64,000 nt of DNA from Desulfovibrio sp. (GCA_030145055.1 JAQYWK010000001.1:806001-870000), one strand, 5' to 3'. Shown: positions 47,794-64,000, numbered from the stretch's first letter. The notes: generated by a model from the letters alone, not told the origin. Numbers and translations: made by a program.

Positions 47794-47940
47794 GTTTATA
47801 TAAAGTGAGACAACGTGGTATGTAAGAATTTACTTTTGGCGTATAATATATTCTAGTGAAAGAGGTCGGGCCAAAGTACTCGATGTGTATTTTTATTTTG
47901 TCGTAGAGAGTTGATCAATATTCTGTTTATGGATGTGATT

Positions 47941-50190
47941 ATGAATTTTTTTAAAAAATGGGCTTTAGCTGCGGGCTTTACTTTTCTAATCGTTGTTTTT
48001 GCCTCTATTATTATTATCTCTTCGTCTCTGACCTTTCGTAAGACCTTAACCGGGCTCGCTCACAATATTATGGAGAATATAGCTTCATACACGCTTGATA
48101 AGTCAGAAGACTATTTGCGTCCCGCAGAGAAGGCCGCAGAATTAACGAAGTTCTTGGCTGATAGTAATATTGTTACAAGCGAAGATCCTTCTTCGATGAT
48201 TAGCTATTTTTATCAGCAGATATCCCTATATCCTCAGTTTACATCCGTCTATTACGGAAATACAAAGGGTGAGTTTTTTATGGCTTCCCGCTCAAACTCT
48301 ATAGTTGAGGGCGGATATTATACGAAAGTGCTCCGTAAAGATGGTGAGAAAATAACTGGTGAACTTTTGTGGACGGATCAAAATTTCAAAGTGATCAAAG
48401 AAGAGATTGATGACACGCAAAGCTACGATCCTCGCACCAGGCCGTGGTATAACGCCGCCGTTAGGCATAACGATGTGATCTGGACTGATCCATATGTGTT
48501 TTTCACTGGTAAAAAGCCCGGTATAACGACAGCAAGTCCTGTTTATGATGCAAACGGGATATTGCTTGGGGTGGTCGGGGTTGATATTACAATAGATGAA
48601 CTTTCCACTTTTCTTTCAAAGACTAAGGTCGGGAAAACAGGCAAAGCTTTTATCGTAAATCGTAATGGTGATGTTGTTGCATTTCCTGATATTTCCAAGT
48701 TGAGGCGCAGTGTTGGAGCAAATAATAAAATTCGTCTTAGCAGGATGAGTGAACTGGATGATGAAACCAGTCGCTTGGCTTATGAATCTTTGCCTCACGG
48801 GCGATTGCCATCAAAGCAAATCTTTACGACTTTTACTCATAATGGGTCCAAATATAATGCGATGTTTACTCCCTTTAAAGGAACTCAGTGGCCTTGGACC
48901 ATTGGCATTTATATGCCGGAAGATGACTATCTCGGCGAGGTCAAGGCGAACCGAAATGTTAATATTTTAATCTCTATTTTTGTAGTTCTGTTAGCCGGTC
49001 TTGCTGGGCTCGTTGTAGCTAAACGTATTGAAAAATCTAGGCAGGAAGCTGTTGCAGCGAATGTTGCAAAAAGTCGCTTCCTAGCTGTTATGAGTCATGA
49101 AATTCGAACTCCTATGAATGTCATTTTAGGCACAACTGATTTGTTGAAGGCTACCGGTTTGAGTGAAGAACAGCAGAAATTGGTTGATCTACTCGGTAAT
49201 GCCGGTGAAGGGCTTACCGATCTGATTAATGATATTTTGGATATGTCCAAGGTTGAAGCTGGATTGCTCGATTTGGAACACGTTCCTTTTGATCCGCGAG
49301 AAGTGGTAGAGCGGGTATGCAGTGTTTTTGTTATTGCAGCTTCGGCGAAAGGGATAGGTTTTAGCTGGAATATAGATCCTGAAATCCCGGCCAGCGTACT
49401 CGGTGATCCCGGTAGAACCAGGCAGGTGCTGATTAATCTCATCGGTAATGCCGTGAAATTTACAAACGAAGGGCAAGTTCAGGTTAAGGTAACTTTCGAA
49501 AAGGGAGATGTCGAGGGCATGGTGCGTCTTCACTTTGCCATTCAGGATTCAGGTCCCGGTATTCCTAAAGAACGGATGGAATCCATCTTTGAGTCATTTA
49601 CTCAGGCGGATGCCACTGTTTCCCGTAATTATGGTGGAACCGGATTGGGCTTAACTATAAGTAAAAAATTGAGCCGTATGATGGGTGGGGATATTTACGT
49701 TGAAAGTAGGCTTTCTGAAGGAAGTACATTTACCTTTACGGCTCCTTTTGAGGAATTTGTGAGTAGTGCTGATTTTCGTGAGAAAGGGTTGATTGAAAGG
49801 GCTGATCCTTTAAGCCCTCTAACTATTTTGCTTGTGGAAGATAATGCCAGTAACCGCATGCTGTTTCAGCATTACCTAGAAGATTCCGGTCACAACGTCG
49901 AGATGGCTGCAGATGGTAAGGCTGGTTTTGAGATGTATAAATCTATACGGCCCGATATTGTTTTCATGGATATTGAGATGCCAATTATGGATGGCTATGA
50001 GTCAACACTGGCAATTCGCCAATGGGAAAAATATTCCAGTGTTCAAGCTGTACCGATTGTTGCTCTTTCTGCACACGCTCTTAAGGGAATGGAAGAGTCC
50101 GTTCGCGACGCGGGCTGTACTGGATATGCAACAAAGCCTTTTTCCAAGAAGCAACTAATAGAACAGCTGGAAAAACATTTTCGTAGTTAG
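47941..50190 (+). CDS. Hybrid sensor histidine kinase/response regulator with dCache sensor
   Basis: Start chosen by alignment with the downstream paralogue (track start 47911). 'YDPRTRPWYNAAV' Cache, 'MSHEIRTPMNVILGTTDLL' H-box, 'DSGPGIPKERMESIFESFTQAD', C-terminal receiver 'LLVEDNASN...VFMDIEMPIMDG...TKPF'. Confidence 0.95.
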   Translation: MNFFKKWALAAGFTFLIVVFASIIIISSSLTFRKTLTGLAHNIMENIASYTLDKSEDYLRPAEKAAELTKFLADSNIVTSEDPSSMISYFYQQISLYPQFTSVYYGNTKGEFFMASRSNSIVEGGYYTKVLRKDGEKITGELLWTDQNFKVIKEEIDDTQSYDPRTRPWYNAAVRHNDVIWTDPYVFFTGKKPGITTASPVYDANGILLGVVGVDITIDELSTFLSKTKVGKTGKAFIVNRNGDVVAFPDISKLRRSVGANNKIRLSRMSELDDETSRLAYESLPHGRLPSKQIFTTFTHNGSKYNAMFTPFKGTQWPWTIGIYMPEDDYLGEVKANRNVNILISIFVVLLAGLAGLVVAKRIEKSRQEAVAANVAKSRFLAVMSHEIRTPMNVILGTTDLLKATGLSEEQQKLVDLLGNAGEGLTDLINDILDMSKVEAGLLDLEHVPFDPREVVERVCSVFVIAASAKGIGFSWNIDPEIPASVLGDPGRTRQVLINLIGNAVKFTNEGQVQVKVTFEKGDVEGMVRLHFAIQDSGPGIPKERMESIFESFTQADATVSRNYGGTGLGLTISKKLSRMMGGDIYVESRLSEGSTFTFTAPFEEFVSSADFREKGLIERADPLSPLTILLVEDNASNRMLFQHYLEDSGHNVEMAADGKAGFEMYKSIRPDIVFMDIEMPIMDGYESTLAIRQWEKYSSVQAVPIVALSAHALKGMEESVRDAGCTGYATKPFSKKQLIEQLEKHFRS

Positions 50191-50384: not shown

Positions 50385-52640
50385 ATGAAAATTTTTAGTA
50401 AATGGGGTTTAGCCGCAGGCTTTACCTCTTTGGTTTGCGTTTTTGCTGCAGTAATCATCATTTCTTCCTCCCTGACCTTTAGAAGAACGCTCACAGGGCT
50501 TTCCCATAATATAATGGAGAATATTGCTTCTTATACTCTTGATAAGTCTGAGGCATATTTGCGCCCTGCTGAAAAAGCAGCAGAACTGACCACCTTTTTG
50601 GCCGACAGCAATATCGTGAGCAGTGAAAATCCATACTCCATGATTAGCTATTTTTATCAGCAGATTGAACTTTATCCGCAGTTTACGGCTATCTATTATG
50701 GAAATATTGAAGGCGAGTTTTTTATGGCTTCGCGGTCAGATTCTATTGTGAAGAATGGATATTTTTCCAAAATAATCAGAAAATCTAAAGAAAGCCAGAA
50801 GGTTGAGCTGCTATGGACAACCCCTGGACATAAGGTTCTGGAAAAGAAGTTTGATCCGACCCATACATATGACCCCCGTTCCCGTCCGTGGTTCGTCTCT
50901 GCAGTCGAAAGCAGCGAAGTCATATGGACAGATCCATATGTGTTTTTTACCGCGCAAAAGCCGGGCATAACTACTGCTTGCCCGGTGTATGACAACGCAG
51001 GGAAGCTGCAGGGTGTCGTCGGGGTGGATATTACTATTGATGAGTTATCCACTTTTTTGAAGAAGTTAAAGATCGGTGAATCTGGCAAGGCTTTTATTGC
51101 CAACCGAAATGGTGATGTTGTGGCTTTCCCAGATTTATCCAAAGTTCAGGGTACTGTTGGCGAAGAGAATAAAGTCAGCCTCAGTAGAATGAGTGAACTT
51201 GATGATGAGGTTAGTCGTAAGGCCTATAACTCAATGCCTTCAGGGCAATTGTCCTCTACTCCGGTATATACTTCTTTCAGTCATAACGGTGAAACTTACA
51301 ATTCTATGTTTGTTCCCTTCACGGACCCTAGATGGCCTTGGATTATTGGGATTTATGTTCGTGAGGATGACTTTTTGGGTGACGTGATTGCCAATCGAAA
51401 CCAGAATATTGTTATTTCACTGTTTGTTGTTTTGCTTGCTGGGCTTGCTGGGTTGGTTGTGGCCAGACGTATTGAAAAGTCAAGAAAGGAAGCCGTAGCA
51501 GCTACGGATGCAAAGAGTCAGTTTTTAGCAAGCATGAGCCATGAAATTCGTACTCCGATGAATGTTATCCTTGGAACTTCTGATTTGCTCCAAGGAACTG
51601 AGCTTAGTGAAGAACAGCTTGAACTGGTTTCGCTTCTTGGAAATGCAGGAGACGGATTACTGAACTTGATCAATGATATTTTGGATATGTCAAAAGTTGA
51701 GTCCGGGCTTTTAGAATTAGAAAGTATAGATTTTAGTCCTCGTGAAGTTGTGCAGCAGACAGCTAAAATATTTGAGGTGGCCGCTTTACATAAAGGAATT
51801 CAAGTTGTTTGCAATATTTCGCCTGATGTTCCCAATTATGTTAAGGGCGATCCTTGCAGGCTTCGTCAGATATTGATCAACCTTATTGGTAACTCACTTA
51901 AATTCACAGTAAGCGGTGGTATCTATATTGATGTAAAACTCTTAAGTGATGCTAGTTCTGCTAAGAAACATATTGAGTTTGTTGTGCGTGATACAGGGCC
52001 GGGGATGGACAAGAGCGTAGTGGACAACATTTTTGAATCCTTTGTTCAAGCTGATTCTTCTGTTGCCCGTAAGCACGGAGGAACAGGTCTAGGGCTGGCG
52101 ATAAGCAAGCGTCTCAGCAATATGATGGATGGTGATATTTGCGCCCGGAGCGAGCTAGGTAAGGGCAGCTCATTTCTTGTAGATGCGTACTTTGATACGA
52201 GCAAGGTTGTTTCTGTATACTCGAAGGAAGTTGATGGTTCCGTTGAAAAAAACGTTGAGGTTCGGCCGCTGACCATCCTTTTGGTTGAAGATAGCGAAGA
52301 CAACCAGATGCTGTTTAAACACTACACTAAGAAAAGTCCTCATACAGTTGAAATTGCAGAAAATGGTAAAGTCGGAGTGGAGATGTTTAAAACAATCCGG
52401 CCGGATATCGTTTTTATGGATATAGAAATGCCAGTGATGGATGGTTATGAGGCAACAAAGGAAATCAGGCAATGGGAACGTGATTCCTGTCTTGTTCCAA
52501 CTGCAATTGTCGCTCTTTCGGCCCATGCACTGACGGGTGTGGAAGATTCTGTTCGAGCAGCCGGTTGTACTGGCTATATGACAAAGCCCTTTTCAAAGAA
52601 AAACCTTATGGAAGAACTCCAAGCTATTTTTCGGGCTTAA
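50385..52640 (+). CDS. Hybrid sensor histidine kinase/response regulator, tandem paralogue of the preceding gene
   Basis: Same architecture: 'YDPRSRPWFVSAV', 'MSHEIRTPMNVILGTSDLL', 'DTGPGMDKSVVDNIFESFVQAD', receiver 'LLVEDSEDN...VFMDIEMPVMDG...TKPF'. Confidence 0.96.
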   Translation: MKIFSKWGLAAGFTSLVCVFAAVIIISSSLTFRRTLTGLSHNIMENIASYTLDKSEAYLRPAEKAAELTTFLADSNIVSSENPYSMISYFYQQIELYPQFTAIYYGNIEGEFFMASRSDSIVKNGYFSKIIRKSKESQKVELLWTTPGHKVLEKKFDPTHTYDPRSRPWFVSAVESSEVIWTDPYVFFTAQKPGITTACPVYDNAGKLQGVVGVDITIDELSTFLKKLKIGESGKAFIANRNGDVVAFPDLSKVQGTVGEENKVSLSRMSELDDEVSRKAYNSMPSGQLSSTPVYTSFSHNGETYNSMFVPFTDPRWPWIIGIYVREDDFLGDVIANRNQNIVISLFVVLLAGLAGLVVARRIEKSRKEAVAATDAKSQFLASMSHEIRTPMNVILGTSDLLQGTELSEEQLELVSLLGNAGDGLLNLINDILDMSKVESGLLELESIDFSPREVVQQTAKIFEVAALHKGIQVVCNISPDVPNYVKGDPCRLRQILINLIGNSLKFTVSGGIYIDVKLLSDASSAKKHIEFVVRDTGPGMDKSVVDNIFESFVQADSSVARKHGGTGLGLAISKRLSNMMDGDICARSELGKGSSFLVDAYFDTSKVVSVYSKEVDGSVEKNVEVRPLTILLVEDSEDNQMLFKHYTKKSPHTVEIAENGKVGVEMFKTIRPDIVFMDIEMPVMDGYEATKEIRQWERDSCLVPTAIVALSAHALTGVEDSVRAAGCTGYMTKPFSKKNLMEELQAIFRA

Positions 52641-56998: not shown

Positions 56999-58177
56999 AT
57001 GGATTTTTTATATGCGAGTGTTAGTGGAGTTAAAGTGAAAGTATTTAAGCCTTTTATTGATTACTACGGTGAGAACGAAATTTCTCCAGTAGCGCAAGAT
57101 ATATCAAATATTACAAAGCATTTTGAAATGAGGAATTCCCTCTATATGGCTTTGGGCATCCCTTCTCGTTTAATCGAGGGACGCAGTGTTATAGAATTTG
57201 GCCCGGGCAGCGGGTATAATGCTTTGTTTACTTTATCACTATCGCCTGCAAAGTACTTGCTCGTAGAAGGTAATCCTACAGGGCTCAAGAATATAGGGCA
57301 GCTTTTTGCCGGTAGGGATAATGTTGAGAATCTGCATGTTGTTGAATCATATATAGAGGAATTTAATACTGCAGAAAAATTTGACCTTGTTATCTGTGAA
57401 GGGGTTATCTCAAATCAGCTTAATCCTTCTGAGTTTTTGAAACATGTTGCCTCTTTTTCCGCTTCCTCAGGACTTGTCGTAATTAATTGTATGGATAGTG
57501 TCTCTTTTTTAAGTGAAAATCTTAGAAGGTTTGTTTCATTTTATATGACAGATGCGGACCTTCCTGTTCGTGATAATGTGGAAAAGCTTCTTCCCGTATG
57601 GAAGGATCATCTCGATAGTATAAAGGATATGACCCGCCCCCACGAAGATTGGATTCTTGATAATATGTTGCAACCCCTTAATGGGGCAATGTTGTCAATT
57701 TCTGATGCGGTTAAGGCTTTAAGGGATGACTTTTATGTGTATAAAGCCTCTCCTGATTTTTTTACTGATTGGAGATGGTTTAAGAAAATTCATGGGGACG
57801 AGCGCGATAAAACTAATGATATTGTACTAAATGAATATGAAAGAAGTGTTCATAATCTTTTAGATTATAAGAAAGAATTTAGCCCACGTGATCCTAAAGA
57901 AAATCTCCAGCTTCTTGAATTATGTGAGAGGGTAAACTCCGATGTTACACAATTTATGGTTTCTCGTGACCCTAAATATGTGGAGCTAATATTAGAGCTA
58001 ACCAAGCAGATAGAGTGTAATTTGAAAAGTGTTGATAGTGATTTTAGTAAAATATTTGAGGACTATAGAAACGGGCTTAATCAGGTGGTTTCTGGCGTTA
58101 CCGATATTGACTTTGGACACTTTACTTCTTTCTTTGGCCGAGGGCAGCAGTATTTATCATTTGTCAGACATGAGTAG
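56999..58177 (+). CDS. Class I SAM methyltransferase
   Basis: 'SVIEFGPGSGYNALFTLSLSPAKYLLVEGNPTGLKNI', 'KFDLVICEGVISNQLNPSEFLKHVASFSASSGLVVINCMD'. Confidence 0.8.
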   Translation: MDFLYASVSGVKVKVFKPFIDYYGENEISPVAQDISNITKHFEMRNSLYMALGIPSRLIEGRSVIEFGPGSGYNALFTLSLSPAKYLLVEGNPTGLKNIGQLFAGRDNVENLHVVESYIEEFNTAEKFDLVICEGVISNQLNPSEFLKHVASFSASSGLVVINCMDSVSFLSENLRRFVSFYMTDADLPVRDNVEKLLPVWKDHLDSIKDMTRPHEDWILDNMLQPLNGAMLSISDAVKALRDDFYVYKASPDFFTDWRWFKKIHGDERDKTNDIVLNEYERSVHNLLDYKKEFSPRDPKENLQLLELCERVNSDVTQFMVSRDPKYVELILELTKQIECNLKSVDSDFSKIFEDYRNGLNQVVSGVTDIDFGHFTSFFGRGQQYLSFVRHE

Positions 58178-58219
58178 TGTGCAAAGAGTGATTTAATTAC
58201 TCTTATTTCAGGGGTTTAA

Positions 58220-59086
58220 ATGAAATTTCCCGTATTCATTTCAGAAGTCTCCAGTAATCATGATTGTGATTTAAACCGCTGTTATGAATTTATTGATACA
58301 TCGGCGCGTATTGGGTGCGGCGCAGTGAAATTTCAACTGTTTAAAGTTGATGAATTATTCGCTCCGGAAATACTTGAAAATAGCGAAGAGCATAGAAACA
58401 GAAAGCAGTGGGAACTTCCAGAATCCTTTATTCCAAAACTCTCGATCCGCTGCAAAAATGCAGATATCGCCTTTTCCTGCACGCCTTTTTATTTAGATGC
58501 TGTTGATATTCTCGCGCCATATGTAGATTTTTTTAAAATAGCTTCATACGAGTTGCTTTGGGATGACTTGCTCCACGCGTCTGCATCGACCGGAAAGCCT
58601 GTGGTTCTTTCAACCGGCATGGCGAATATGGATGAGATAGCGCATGCCGTGACTGTTCTTCGTAAAGCGGGTTGTTCTGATTTGACTTTGCTTCACTGCG
58701 TATCGGGCTATCCCACCCCTCCTGAACAGGCAAATTTGTCCGCGATTGATACTTTACGGAATGCATTCGGCTGTGACATCGGCTGGTCAGATCATACTGT
58801 TGAAGAAGGGGTTGTAGCACGGGCTGTTCATAAGTACGGCGCTAGCATGATTGAATTTCATCTTGATCTTGATGAGAAAGGGGCGGAGTATTCGGGGGGG
58901 CATTGCTGGCTTCCTGAACCTGCTGAAAATCTAATCAAAAATGTTCGTATTGGTCTAACCGCTGACGGTAATGGTATTAAAGAATCTGCCGCGGCAGAGT
59001 TGCCGGACCGAGATTGGCGTGCTGATCCTAAAGATGGTTTGCGCCCGTTAACAAATTTACGAAAAAGCTTCATTGGGCGTGATTAA
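58220..59086 (+). CDS. NeuB/SpsE-family sialic-acid-synthase-like protein without C-terminal SAF domain
   Basis: 'FISEVSSNHDCDLNRCYEFIDTSARIGCGAVKFQLFKVDELFAP', 'FSCTPFYLDAVDIL', 'FFKIASYELLWDDLLHASASTGKPVVLSTGMANMDEI', 'LLHCVSGYPTPPEQANLSAIDTLRNAFGCDIGWSDHT'. Confidence 0.92.
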   Translation: MKFPVFISEVSSNHDCDLNRCYEFIDTSARIGCGAVKFQLFKVDELFAPEILENSEEHRNRKQWELPESFIPKLSIRCKNADIAFSCTPFYLDAVDILAPYVDFFKIASYELLWDDLLHASASTGKPVVLSTGMANMDEIAHAVTVLRKAGCSDLTLLHCVSGYPTPPEQANLSAIDTLRNAFGCDIGWSDHTVEEGVVARAVHKYGASMIEFHLDLDEKGAEYSGGHCWLPEPAENLIKNVRIGLTADGNGIKESAAAELPDRDWRADPKDGLRPLTNLRKSFIGRD

Positions 59087-59149
59087 ATATTCGCGGTTTA
59101 TGGGTATTCAGCTTTAAATGGTATCTTTTTTTGAGAGTAAAAAGGAAAT

Positions 59150-60682
59150 ATGATGACCAGCCTTGATAATAAAATTAAGACAGTTTCTGAGCTTTCAGAA
59201 ATAGCTGCCGAGCTGAAAGAGCAAGGCAAAAAGATAGTGCTTTGTCACGGCGTTTTCGATCTTTTGCATATTGGGCATATCCGCTACCTGAATCAGGCTA
59301 AAGAACATGGCGATATCTTAATAGTAAGTCTCACCCCTGATCGCTTCGTGGACAAAGGGCCTGACCGGCCGGCTTTTACAGAGGTTTTGCGCGCTGAGGC
59401 TCTGGCATCTCTTGGTGAAGCTGATTATGTGACAATTAATGAATGGCCCACAGCAGAAGAGACCCTTCGTTTAATTCGCCCGGACGTTTATGCTAAAGGG
59501 GATGAATTTAAGGATGTTGACAGTGACCCCGCTGGCAAGATTGGTGGCGAGGCTGATGTCGTAAAAGAAATCGGGGCAAAGCTTGTATTTACTTCAGATA
59601 TTGTTTTCAGCTCATCTAATCTCATCAATCGTTATTTGACGCAGAATAGTGAAGAAATGAATGAGTATCTACAGATGTTTAGAGCTCGCTACGAGTTGAA
59701 CGATATTCTGTCCATGCTTGATAAAATGAGTGAATTAAAGGTGCTGGTCGTAGGTGATACGATTCTTGATGAGTACCAGATAGCCGCAACTTTGGGGAAA
59801 TCCTCAAAAGACCCGATCCTTGCTCTGAAGTATCAATCTCATGAGCTATACGCAGGCGGTGGACTCGCTGTTGCCAACCACGTTGCTAATTTTGCAGGTG
59901 AGGTCACTTTGCTTTCAATGCTTGGTGATACTGATAGGTATGAAGATTTTATTCGCGAGAAACTGAACCCTAAAATTGAGCCGTATTTTTTCACCCGCCC
60001 TAATTCTCCGACTACATTAAAACGAAGATTTATTGATGGCTATTCGCTTAGCAAAGTGATGGAAATGTACATCATGAATGATGATCCTTTGCCAAGTAAT
60101 GTAGATTCTGCTCTCTGTGATCAGTTGGAACAGTTGCTCGGAGGTTATGACGTTGTTATTGTCGCTGATTTTGGGCACGGTCTCGTTACTCCGAATATGG
60201 TTGAACTGTTGTCTTCGAAAGCTCCATATTTGGCTGTAAATACGCAAGCCAATGCCGGAAACAGGGGTTTTAATACTATAGGAAAGTATCCAAGCGTTGA
60301 TTTTTTCTCTCTTGCTGAGCATGAATTACGTCTTGAGACTAGAGATCAGGTAAACGATCTTCGTCCTTTGCTCATCGAAGTAGGCAAGAAGCTTGATGTG
60401 AAATTAGCAATGGTGACTCAGGGGAGTCGCGGTTGCTCATTATGGAATCCTGAAAGTGAATTCGTTAAGATCCCGTCATTTATTTCAAATGTTGTAGATA
60501 GAGTCGGGGCCGGAGATGCTCTGTTTTCAGTTTCCGCCATGGCAGGATCCATGGGCCTTCATGAAGAACTTGTCGGCTTTTTTGGTAATGTAGCTGGTTC
60601 TCTAGCTGTGCAGATTATGGGTAATGATAAGTCTATCAATAAAGAGGCCATGAAAAAGTACATAACTGCAACTCTCAAATAA
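59150..60682 (+). CDS. Bifunctional nucleotidyltransferase/PfkB sugar kinase (HldE-like, domains in swapped order)
   Basis: N-terminal 'KIVLCHGVFDLLHIGHIRYLNQAKEHGDILIVSLTPDRFV' (cytidylyltransferase-like); C-terminal 'VLVVGDTILDEYQ...YAGGGLAVANHVANFAGEVTLLSMLGD...DRVGAGDALFSVSAM' (PfkB/RfaE kinase). Confidence 0.92.
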   Translation: MMTSLDNKIKTVSELSEIAAELKEQGKKIVLCHGVFDLLHIGHIRYLNQAKEHGDILIVSLTPDRFVDKGPDRPAFTEVLRAEALASLGEADYVTINEWPTAEETLRLIRPDVYAKGDEFKDVDSDPAGKIGGEADVVKEIGAKLVFTSDIVFSSSNLINRYLTQNSEEMNEYLQMFRARYELNDILSMLDKMSELKVLVVGDTILDEYQIAATLGKSSKDPILALKYQSHELYAGGGLAVANHVANFAGEVTLLSMLGDTDRYEDFIREKLNPKIEPYFFTRPNSPTTLKRRFIDGYSLSKVMEMYIMNDDPLPSNVDSALCDQLEQLLGGYDVVIVADFGHGLVTPNMVELLSSKAPYLAVNTQANAGNRGFNTIGKYPSVDFFSLAEHELRLETRDQVNDLRPLLIEVGKKLDVKLAMVTQGSRGCSLWNPESEFVKIPSFISNVVDRVGAGDALFSVSAMAGSMGLHEELVGFFGNVAGSLAVQIMGNDKSINKEAMKKYITATLK

Positions 60683-60692
60683 AGATTAGGTT

Positions 60693-61688
60693 ATGCCCAG
60701 TAAATACAGGTTGTTTGATCGTTCTAAGCTAACGTTACTTCCCTTGGAGAAGAGGAAAAGTCTTCTCAGTATAGATATTATGCAAGAGCCTGCTCTTCGT
60801 AGTGAATTTAATCCTTCTTTCGCGAAGGTCGCAGAAGATTTAAAGGCTGCAAAAGAATCCGGCAGTGCACGCATTCTCATGCTAGGAGCACACGTGCTTC
60901 GTTCCGGTATGCAGAAATATTTATTCAGCCTTATGGAAGAAGGGCTAATCAGTTGCATCGCGGTAAATGGTGCATGCGCAATACATGATTTCGAATTAGC
61001 CTATCACGGTAGCACCACTGAGTGCGTTTCCACATATATTTCAAATGGACAGTTTGGTCTTTGGCAGGAAACTGGGCTGTTAAATGATATTGTTACTGAT
61101 GGCGTTAAAGCCGGACTTGGTTTTGGTGAAGCTGTAGGTAAGTATATTGTAGATAAAAAGCTTTCTTCAGCGGATATCAGCCTTTTTGCTAAAGCATACG
61201 AGCTTGAGATTCCTATTACCGTTCATGTTGGAATCGGCTACGATATTGTGCATGAGCATCCCAATTGTGATGGCGGTACGATAGGTCAGGCCAGCTATAC
61301 TGATTTTTTAATTTTTGCGGCGCAACTTCAGTCCCTCGAGGGAGGAGTTGTGATGAATTTCGGAAGTGCGATCATGGCACCTGAAATATATTTGAAAGCT
61401 TTATCAATGGTTCGTAATGCTGCTCATAATTCTGAGTCTGCCGTGCAGAAATCTATTTGCCATTTCACCAGCTTGGTGTGTGATTTGCACGACCTTCCTG
61501 AAGAGGTGAATGCTGAACCTCCTAAAACCAATGCAGCGTATTATTTCAGGCCTTGGAAAACCATGTTAGTCAGGACTGTCGCAGATGGCGGCAGAGGCTA
61601 TTATGTCCGTGGGTTCCACGGCGACACGATTCCTGAACTATGGACAGCAGTAAGAAAATGTTGTTCCAACAGTAACTCGGAAGGGTAA
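60693..61688 (+). CDS. Uncharacterised protein, possible deoxyhypusine-synthase-like/Rossmann fold (tentative)
   Basis: 331 aa; 'ARILMLGAHVLRSGMQKYLFSLMEEGLISCIAVNGACAIHDFELAYHGSTTECV', 'VHVGIGYDIVHEHPNCDGGTIGQASYTDFLIFAAQLQSLEGGVVMNFGSAIMAPEIYLKAL'. ORF solid; family is a guess. Confidence 0.7.
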   Translation: MPSKYRLFDRSKLTLLPLEKRKSLLSIDIMQEPALRSEFNPSFAKVAEDLKAAKESGSARILMLGAHVLRSGMQKYLFSLMEEGLISCIAVNGACAIHDFELAYHGSTTECVSTYISNGQFGLWQETGLLNDIVTDGVKAGLGFGEAVGKYIVDKKLSSADISLFAKAYELEIPITVHVGIGYDIVHEHPNCDGGTIGQASYTDFLIFAAQLQSLEGGVVMNFGSAIMAPEIYLKALSMVRNAAHNSESAVQKSICHFTSLVCDLHDLPEEVNAEPPKTNAAYYFRPWKTMLVRTVADGGRGYYVRGFHGDTIPELWTAVRKCCSNSNSEG

Positions 61689-61692
61689 TGAT

Positions 61693-62250
61693 TTGTGGCT
61701 TAACCATACTGATTCTTTACAGAACTGCCTCGGATCATTAGAAGTTAGCTGTGATTCAAAAGATATTAATGTCTGCGATCACGCTTTTGACTATTGGAAA
61801 CAGATGACAGTTGAGCTTCGGGAAAAAGGCCACATTATTTATATGGTGGGGAACGGAGCGAGCGCGTCAATGGCGAGTCATTTTTCCGCCGATCTTGCAA
61901 AAAATGCCCATGTTCACACTCAGGTTTTTACTGATCTGGCACTTATTACCGCCATTGCCAATGACCTTTCATTTGATCAAATTTTCGTCGAACCGCTTCG
62001 ACGCAGACTAACTCCCAATGACATGCTTGTTGCTATCAGCAGTTCCGGGGATTCTCCGAATGTTGTAAATGCTTGTCGTTTTGCTTCTGAGGTGGGCGCT
62101 TCGGTGATCACTGTTACCGCTATGGGGGCAGAAAATAAAATGCGCCAGATTGGAGATCTTAATTTTTGGATTCCCGCAGATACTTACGGTATGGCCGAAA
62201 CAGGTCATGCGTGTATTCTTCATTACTGGATGGACTCAGTTTCTATATAA
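61693..62250 (+). CDS. SIS-domain sugar-phosphate isomerase (GmhA-like)
   Basis: 'IIYMVGNGASASMASHFSADLAKNA', 'ITAIANDLSFDQIFVEPLRRRLTPNDMLVAISSSGDSPNVVNACRFASEVGASVITVTAMG'. Track ATG/alternative start at 61693. Confidence 0.9.
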   Translation: MWLNHTDSLQNCLGSLEVSCDSKDINVCDHAFDYWKQMTVELREKGHIIYMVGNGASASMASHFSADLAKNAHVHTQVFTDLALITAIANDLSFDQIFVEPLRRRLTPNDMLVAISSSGDSPNVVNACRFASEVGASVITVTAMGAENKMRQIGDLNFWIPADTYGMAETGHACILHYWMDSVSI

Positions 62251-62272
62251 ATTTTAGAAGGATAGAGGGATT

Positions 62273-63346
62273 ATGTCTAACGATGAATTTCGTATAGATT
62301 CTCATAAGTTACTGTTTCATCCACAAAGAGTCGCCAATTGGATGAATGGTGAAAATATTTATCCATTGTACATGGAACTTAGCCCCGCTGGAGCGTGCAA
62401 TCACCGATGCCGTTTTTGCGGGCTTGATTTTGCGGGCTACAAACCTGTTTTTATGGACGGAGAGAAGCTTGGCGTCCGGCTCGATGAGATGGGTAAACTT
62501 GGTGTTAAGAGCATCATGTATGCAGGTGAGGGTGAGCCTTTTCTGAACAAGAAGATGACAGATATTATTTTACGCACTAAAAATGCGGGGATTGATGTTG
62601 CTTTGACCACAAATGGTGTGCTTATGACCCCTGAAATAAGCGAAAAAATATTGAAGGCTATGAGCTGGATTAAAGTTAGTCTTAATGCAGGAACGCCTGA
62701 AACTTATGCTAAAATTCACGGGACAGACTCGGCTGATTTTGAAAAAGTGATGAAGAATCTTGAGGCCGCCGTTGCTATTCGCAAAAAGTTGAATGCAAAC
62801 TGTGCTCTTGGTGCTCAGATTTTATTACTCCCTGAAAATTCAGGAGAAATAGAAACCCTTGCCGTGAGATGTAGAGATATCGGTTTGGACTATTTAGTTG
62901 TGAAGCCATATTCGCACCATCCTCAGTCTGAAGGTCAGGAATATGCTGACATAGTCTATGAGGATTACACCGAACTTGCTGCGAAAGTTAACAGCTACAG
63001 CACAGAATATTTTAATGTCGTTTTCCGTCTTGATTCCATGAAATCATGGGATGAAAAAAAGCATACGTACAATCGCTGTCATGCACTGCCGTTCTGGTCC
63101 TATGTTGATTCATATGGAAATATCTGGGGTTGCAGTGTTTATTTGCAGGATGAGCGCTTTCTTTACGGAAATGTTTTCGAACAAAGTTTCGAAGATATTT
63201 GGACGGGCGAAAAACGAGCCGAGTCCATGAAGTGGTGTGCTGATAATCTTGATCCTCATAATTGCCGAGTTAATTGCCGTATGGATAAAATTAATACCTA
63301 TTTATGGGAGCTTGTTAATCCGAAAGCTCATGTCAATTTTATATAG
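62273..63346 (+). CDS. Radical SAM protein with SPASM-like C-terminus
   Basis: 'LYMELSPAGACNHRCRFCGLDFAGYK' (CxxxCxxC), 'SIMYAGEGEPFLNKKMTDIILRTKNAGIDVALTTNGVLM', C-terminal Cys set 'RCHALPFWSYVDSYGNIWGCSVYLQDERFLYGNVFEQSFEDIW...CADNLDPHNCRVNC'. Confidence 0.93.
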   Translation: MSNDEFRIDSHKLLFHPQRVANWMNGENIYPLYMELSPAGACNHRCRFCGLDFAGYKPVFMDGEKLGVRLDEMGKLGVKSIMYAGEGEPFLNKKMTDIILRTKNAGIDVALTTNGVLMTPEISEKILKAMSWIKVSLNAGTPETYAKIHGTDSADFEKVMKNLEAAVAIRKKLNANCALGAQILLLPENSGEIETLAVRCRDIGLDYLVVKPYSHHPQSEGQEYADIVYEDYTELAAKVNSYSTEYFNVVFRLDSMKSWDEKKHTYNRCHALPFWSYVDSYGNIWGCSVYLQDERFLYGNVFEQSFEDIWTGEKRAESMKWCADNLDPHNCRVNCRMDKINTYLWELVNPKAHVNFI

Positions 63347-63388
63347 TATGTTTGCCGCTATTTATTTGAATACATATTTGAGGATGCC

Positions 63389-64000
63389 ATGATTTTAGGA
63401 TCAGATTTCGACAATACTATGGTTGATTATAATGCGCTATTTTATCAAGCTGCGTTAGGAATCGGCTTAGTTGATGGTTCCGTAGCCGCGAATAAAACCG
63501 CAGTACGTGACCATATACGGAAATCTGATGGCGGGGAGATTCTATGGCAAAAGTTGCAAGCGGAAGTTTATGGACCTCGCATTAATGAGGCTGTTCTGTT
63601 TTTAGGTTTGTGTGACTTTTTGACCCTTTGTATCAAAAATAAAATCCCTGTGTATGTGGTGAGTCACAAAACCCGTTTTGCCTGCCGCGGAGATGTTGAT
63701 TTGCGCGAGGCTGCTCTCAGTTTTATGGAAAAGAACGATCTTTTCAATTCGTCTCCTTATGGGCTGAGTCTTGAGCGCGTTTTTTTTGTAGACTCCAGAT
63801 ATGAGAAGGGCGAAATTATAAAATCACTCAATTGTGATGTGTTTGTAGATGACTTGATTGAAGTCTTTTGTGAGTCTTCTTTTCCCGCTGATATTTCTAA
63901 ATTTATGTTTGCGCCGCAAGTAATAGAGACTCCGCTAGAAGTAGATAGTCTGCTTGAAATTGAGATGGTCAAAACATGGGACGAGCTGTCAGAGATTATT
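63389..64000 (+). CDS. HAD-like hydrolase, partial (runs off window)
   Basis: Manual reading: MILGSDFDNTMVDYNALFYQAALGIGL...; DxDxT motif, 'VYVVSHKT', 'VFVDD'; RBS 'ttgagga' upstream. Confidence 0.8.
   Translation, partial: MILGSDFDNTMVDYNALFYQAALGIGLVDGSVAANKTAVRDHIRKSDGGEILWQKLQAEVYGPRINEAVLFLGLCDFLTLCIKNKIPVYVVSHKTRFACRGDVDLREAALSFMEKNDLFNSSPYGLSLERVFFVDSRYEKGEIIKSLNCDVFVDDLIEVFCESSFPADISKFMFAPQVIETPLEVDSLLEIEMVKTWDELSEII

Follow-up and report, generated by a model that had tools for sequence, protein, structure and literature searches.

What do the seven consecutive genes at the end of a 64,000-nucleotide stretch of a Desulfovibrio sp. genome (GCA_030145055.1 JAQYWK010000001.1:806001-870000; G000:C1:806001-870000 in our numbering, hereafter the window) produce? 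Positions 56999-64000 hold seven intact + strand open reading frames (A to G in Table 1), the last of which is cut by the window end. Their enzyme classes, named in an original prediction made on this DNA, were confirmed by Pfam, and in the case of the HAD-like protein by motifs and fold. That prediction proposed a modified heptose or a nonulosonic-acid-like sugar; its heptose-like side gained support, while its NeuB-defined side did not, the NeuB gene being accessory. We lean towards the view that the operon makes a nucleotide-activated long-chain aldose, of heptose or octose type, for a surface glycan. This view is built on the domains of the proteins, their intact catalytic motifs, the compactness of the operon, its conservation across phyla, and the link of one protein family, that of protein D, to gmhA/hldE operons.

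Conservation of the neighbourhood was followed in 80 loci encoding relatives of D, taken from species genomes, onto which the window families were mapped by profile searches. Co-occurrence was counted among loci with enough flank to test, hence the denominators differ gene by gene. A PfkB gene is found within 4.5 kb of D in 66 of 69 loci, and within the same distance there is a nucleotidyltransferase in 68 of 72 and an SIS gene in 44 of 63. Radical S-adenosylmethionine (SAM) enzymes of the F type occur within 6 kb (32/50), and the C half of transketolase within 9 kb (38/52). HAD genes of the G type are near D in 16 of 44 loci, no more than 6 of 52 have NeuB at a distance of up to 4 kb, and methyltransferase A was seen in only 2 of the 80 related loci (L100 and L105). 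Because of these counts, the core is considered to consist of C, D and E, usually together with F and transketolase, with NeuB and methyltransferase A as accessory genes. NeuB, a defining part of the system in the original prediction, is thus ruled out as a core gene. Loci with D span Desulfobacterota, Nitrospirota, Nitrospinota, Planctomycetota, Omnitrophota, Verrucomicrobiota, Acidobacteriota, Magnetococcales and candidate phyla. The C-D-E triad is kept in at least seven phyla, a conservation beyond chance, so the neighbourhood survives the comparison with relatives by which it was to be judged.

Within the same family, D was detected in two of the 16 sampled genomes, the one studied here and G040, and gene order in the latter (L126) differs from that of the window. 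Such rarity and rearrangement fit exchangeable surface-glycan islands. Base composition gives no sign of recent foreign origin (G+C is 42.6% in the operon and 43.8% in the remaining window), and no transfer RNA gene, as in islands linked to them, is present in L002, the locus that extends past the window. A canonical HldE kinase is located elsewhere in the genome, at C1:540190, and the sole HldD over cut-off at C1:916471, about 50 kb off; the window set is therefore a second, dedicated one.

Protein C is composed of an N-terminal nucleotidyltransferase (HxGH) and a C-terminal PfkB kinase (GAGD), which are the domains of HldE in reversed order. Residues H40, G42 and H43 of the first motif and G453, G455 and D456 of the second are conserved in 97% or more of 41 loci, and the HldE model PRK11316 gives 161 bits against a cut-off of 521. 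In the 19 loci with a stand-alone nucleotidyltransferase, the fused copy lacks the second HxGH histidine (HPGI/V/M) and is never intact. Where no stand-alone enzyme is present, the fused HxGH is intact in 37 loci, a number that includes a few window duplicates, and lost in 2. This pattern of loss and retention suggests that one active nucleotidyltransferase is required. Degraded fused motifs beside a separate nucleotidyltransferase gene can be seen in L048, L050, L054, L073, L102, L107 and similar loci.

The best PDB matches of protein E are phosphoheptose isomerases (E-value 1.8e-15), and on the GmhA model TIGR00441 it obtains 67 bits against a cut-off of 209. Its residues H63, D67, E169 and H177, invariant in 42 homologues, are presumably at GmhA metal-site positions, where the residues are altered. 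Protein F belongs to the radical SAM/SPASM enzymes, with cysteines C42-x3-C46-x2-C49 and C269, C287, C331 and C335 and a C-terminal HVNFI motif; CxxxCxxC and the SPASM cysteines are invariant in 31 homologues. For protein G, Pfam and NCBIfam gave no match, TIGR00213 (GmhB, cut-off 150 bits) included. Its HAD motifs D6-x-D8-x-T10, S92, K140 and D154-D155 are invariant in 16 homologues, and its AlphaFold 2 (AF2) model (predicted local distance difference test score, pLDDT, 92.3) matches HAD phosphatases with a best E-value of 1.9e-6. Alignment and modelled fold thus uphold placement in the HAD superfamily, a call first made on motif alone. The sole GmhB-like match of the genome, on another contig, reaches 126 bits. 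Catalytic motifs are kept in C, E, F and G, as well as in H, I and J further downstream.

Protein D is a member of the GSU2086 family (NF052581, 368.5 bits against a cut-off of 250). Foldseek comparison of its AF2 model (pLDDT 88.9) retrieved AgrE, ArgZ, a LOR/SDH protein and deoxyhypusine synthases (DHS) as proteins of the same fold, with E-values from 6e-8 to 1e-5 (6e-8 for AgrE, about 1e-6 for DHS), probability 1.00 and a TM-score of about 0.5. A sequence profile of D finds the AgrE/ArgZ domain weakly (E-value 3e-4), and no DHS family match appeared in Pfam or NCBIfam. On the model, D has a deoxyhypusine-synthase/ornithine-cyclodeaminase-like fold of the nicotinamide adenine dinucleotide (NAD) type, and NAD use is predicted.

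Two branches make up the GSU2086 family, the window type (FRPWKTM) and another, D' (YRPxxNVV). Of the 30 D' loci with the best scores, 26 have a gmhA-type gene beside D', and the isomerases tested from D' loci score at or just under the GmhA cut-off. The order gmhA-D'-hldE, with normal HldE domain order, is present in L120, L121, L122 and L125 (four genomes of three families); in L124, hldE comes next after D'. At least three of the genomes, G325, G344 and G287, also have gmhB near D', about 1.5 kb away and in each case no further than some 2.5 kb; these three genomes have no HldD over cut-off, and G153 and G363 do. The position of D' inside gmhA/hldE operons ties the GSU2086 family to heptose metabolism. 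It also strengthens the ADP-heptose-like logic of SIS, kinase/nucleotidyltransferase and HAD recognised in the original prediction, where the product of gene D had been left uncharacterised.

For genomes that have HldE and lack HldD, gene context makes D' a candidate, open to testing, for the absent heptose epimerase. Among 99 genomes of the phylum, 79 have an HldE kinase over cut-off, and HldD was found in 7 of the 65 with D or D' versus 12 of the 34 without (Fisher p 0.006, phylogeny ignored). D as a full replacement of HldD was rejected, and the association is suggestive only. The GSU2086 family may represent a new class of heptose-pathway enzymes. A broader claim is tentative, and we would sooner doubt it than not: the family would be an NAD-dependent enzyme class so far overlooked in heptose metabolism and would stand in for HldD in some Desulfobacterota, and the window branch, with reversed HldE, transketolase and radical-SAM enzymes, would make a novel nucleoside diphosphate (NDP) heptose or octose for surface glycans in many phyla.

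From these proteins we infer a substrate, an order of steps, a role for D, a chemistry for the radical-SAM enzymes and a final glycan. The split transketolase would make or supply a ketose phosphate of seven or eight carbons, which the SIS protein E would convert into an aldose phosphate. Phosphorylation of C1 would be carried out by the PfkB domain of C, the HAD protein G would strip the terminal phosphate, and the nucleotidyltransferase domain of C would form the NDP-sugar. Protein D may perform a redox or epimerising step, at the place held by HldD in the classical route, and the radical-SAM enzymes and methyltransferases would tailor the sugar. Several points weigh against the synthesis of a long-chain aldose. 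E, C and B all score far under the curated GmhA, HldE and NeuB cut-offs, and the low count of HAD genes (16/44) means that the other loci need another phosphatase. The anti-correlation of D and HldD is moderate and takes no account of phylogeny.

Extension past 64 kb, as the original prediction had proposed, added six operon genes (Table 1), giving 13 in total up to about window-equivalent 70750; opposite-strand genes start past this end. Neighbouring genes overlap or are 4-130 bp apart, which supports a single transcription unit. Promoter and terminator scans gave counts near shuffled expectation, and no RNA families or riboswitches were found in window positions 40000-64000. Upstream, two adjacent hybrid histidine kinases (window 47911-50190 and 50385-52640) closely resemble each other and form a tandem pair, evidently a duplication.

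Table 1. Genes of the operon. Positions are those of the window, or of locus L002 where indicated (window position = L002 position + 56499).
Gene	Product	Position	Strand	Remarks
A	Class I SAM-dependent methyltransferase	56999-58177	+	392 aa; Pfam Methyltransf_23/31; first gene of the operon; accessory
B	Short NeuB-family phosphoenolpyruvate-condensing enzyme without SAF	58220-59086	+	288 aa; Pfam NeuB; accessory
C	CTP_transf_like-PfkB fusion	59150-60682	+	510 aa; Pfam; core gene
D	GSU2086-family protein (NF052581)	60693-61688	+	331 aa; core gene
E	GmhA-like SIS sugar-phosphate isomerase	61693-62250	+	185 aa; TTG start; Pfam SIS; core gene
F	Radical SAM/SPASM enzyme	62273-63346	+	357 aa; Pfam Radical_SAM and SPASM over cut-offs
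G	HAD-superfamily phosphatase-like protein	63389-64000, on to window-equivalent 64048 (L002 7549)	+	
H	APH-type kinase	L002 7539-8579		directly after the HAD gene; beyond window
I	Transketolase N half	L002 8560-9393		beyond window
J	Transketolase C half	L002 9393-10319		beyond window
	TylF-type methyltransferase	L002 10342-11115		beyond window
	Second SPASM radical-SAM enzyme	L002 11131-12234		beyond window
	B12-binding radical-SAM enzyme	L002 12365-14251		last of the operon; beyond window

The surroundings of the operon raise another explanation, namely that it serves an adjacent pseudaminic-like pathway, with the short NeuB as its phosphoenolpyruvate-condensing enzyme and the other enzymes supplying a rare substituent. 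A convergent - strand cluster past the window (L002:14255-18965 and L003:1-12055) encodes PseB, PseC and PseF, all three over their cut-offs, together with a PseG-like protein, with no PseI in the cluster and no PseH at its cut-off. The only other NeuB of the genome belongs to a legionaminic-type O-antigen locus about 500 kb from the window copy, and in several other phyla D has a NeuB or NeuA gene beside it. The window NeuB may thus be used by the neighbouring pathway. However, this protein (Pfam NeuB, E-value 6.5e-61) has no SAF match, and it obtains 168 bits on the PseI model TIGR03586 (cut-off 340) and 180 on the NeuB model TIGR03569 (cut-off 400). NeuB is missing near D in 46 of 52 loci. 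A close relative of B was found only in one Desulfovibrio metagenome-assembled genome (L034; 69% identical, directly before C), yet PseB and PseC are absent there within the 20.7 kb examined. Service to the pseudaminic-like pathway is therefore held to be unlikely. As separate observations, a similarly short protein, 6ncs (290 aa, deposited as sialic acid synthetase), is among the closest solved relatives of B. The pseudaminic cluster also includes an ATP-grasp L-amino-acid-ligase-like protein, a second split transketolase, GH57-like and BNR-repeat proteins, and a CDP-glycerol-type transferase. The O-antigen locus (L141, G000:C1:355001-374900) comprises a full-length NeuB, a CBS-nucleotidyltransferase, an aminotransferase, a NeuA-like protein and HisH/HisF-like proteins beside a WbpG-like amidotransferase.

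The fold of D suggests a different role for this protein, in which it synthesises or attaches an amine or spermidine-like group, as do deoxyhypusine and homospermidine synthases, so that the glycan would bear a polyamine and no sugar redox step would be involved. The nearest folds, DHS and AgrE/ArgZ, act on amines through NAD, and D of the window type keeps an invariant W288-K289 (FRPWKTM), whose lysine, from alignment by eye, may correspond to the DHS catalytic lysine. The gmhA/hldE-linked D' is devoid of that lysine (RPxTNVV), however, and no polyamine gene is among the recurring neighbours of D, which makes this role improbable. Variable gene order and content among loci, together with the rarity of D in same-family genomes (2/16), would also be expected of a mosaic of glycan genes that share no common pathway; against this, every open reading frame is intact, catalytic residues do not vary and the triad is widely kept, and we consider a mere mosaic very improbable. 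The favoured explanation is thus that the product of the core enzymes is probably an activated long-chain sugar destined for the cell surface. A conserved sugar-activation module of sulfate reducers, Nitrospirota, anammox planctomycetes, Omnitrophota and others bears generic or no annotation, and naming its product would show unusual surface sugars of these mostly uncultured groups.

Searches of the open-access literature, a source that covers few subscription journals and preprints, brought up no description of this gene set, and no known pathway was found to match it gene for gene. Systems available for comparison are the ADP-heptose pathway, the nonulosonic acid pathways, the guanosine diphosphate (GDP) octose of lincosamide antibiotics (PMC12945683), and Geobacter sulfurreducens GSU2085 (hldE), GSU2086 and GSU2087 (gmhA), which display similar transposon-sequencing defects on electrodes and are required for growth there (PMC5585712). 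With the ADP-heptose pathway the window shares the logic of SIS isomerase, PfkB kinase, HxGH nucleotidyltransferase and HAD phosphatase, and members of the D family occur within genuine gmhA-hldE operons, some of which include gmhB. It differs in the reversed domains of C, altered SIS metal ligands, sub-equivalog scores and the lack of HldD in the operon, and in the addition of transketolase, the APH-type kinase and radical-SAM enzymes. Pathways of pseudaminic, legionaminic and sialic acids also have a NeuB-family gene, and Pse genes adjoin the window operon, but the window NeuB is SAF-less, under cut-offs and accessory, and the core enzymes come from other families. Filing the set as ADP-heptose or as sialic/pseudaminic synthesis is ruled out by the cut-offs and domain order; by the sequence tests made, it appears to work like heptose/octose activation and falls outside the ADP-heptose pathway.

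Synthesis of lincosamide GDP-octose proceeds through LmbR, LmbN, LmbP, LmbK and LmbO, LmbR being of transaldolase type. From general knowledge of that pathway, the likeness is that a dedicated carbon-chain-transfer enzyme feeds an SIS isomerase, a kinase, a phosphatase and a nucleotidyltransferase. Differences are the transaldolase-type LmbR in place of transketolase, other kinase and nucleotidyltransferase families, and no D-family protein. In GSU2085-GSU2086-GSU2087, hldE-like, GSU2086-family and gmhA-like genes are adjacent, as in the window; by order and annotation, however, they are closest to the gmhA-D'-hldE operons, whereas the window carries the other D subfamily.

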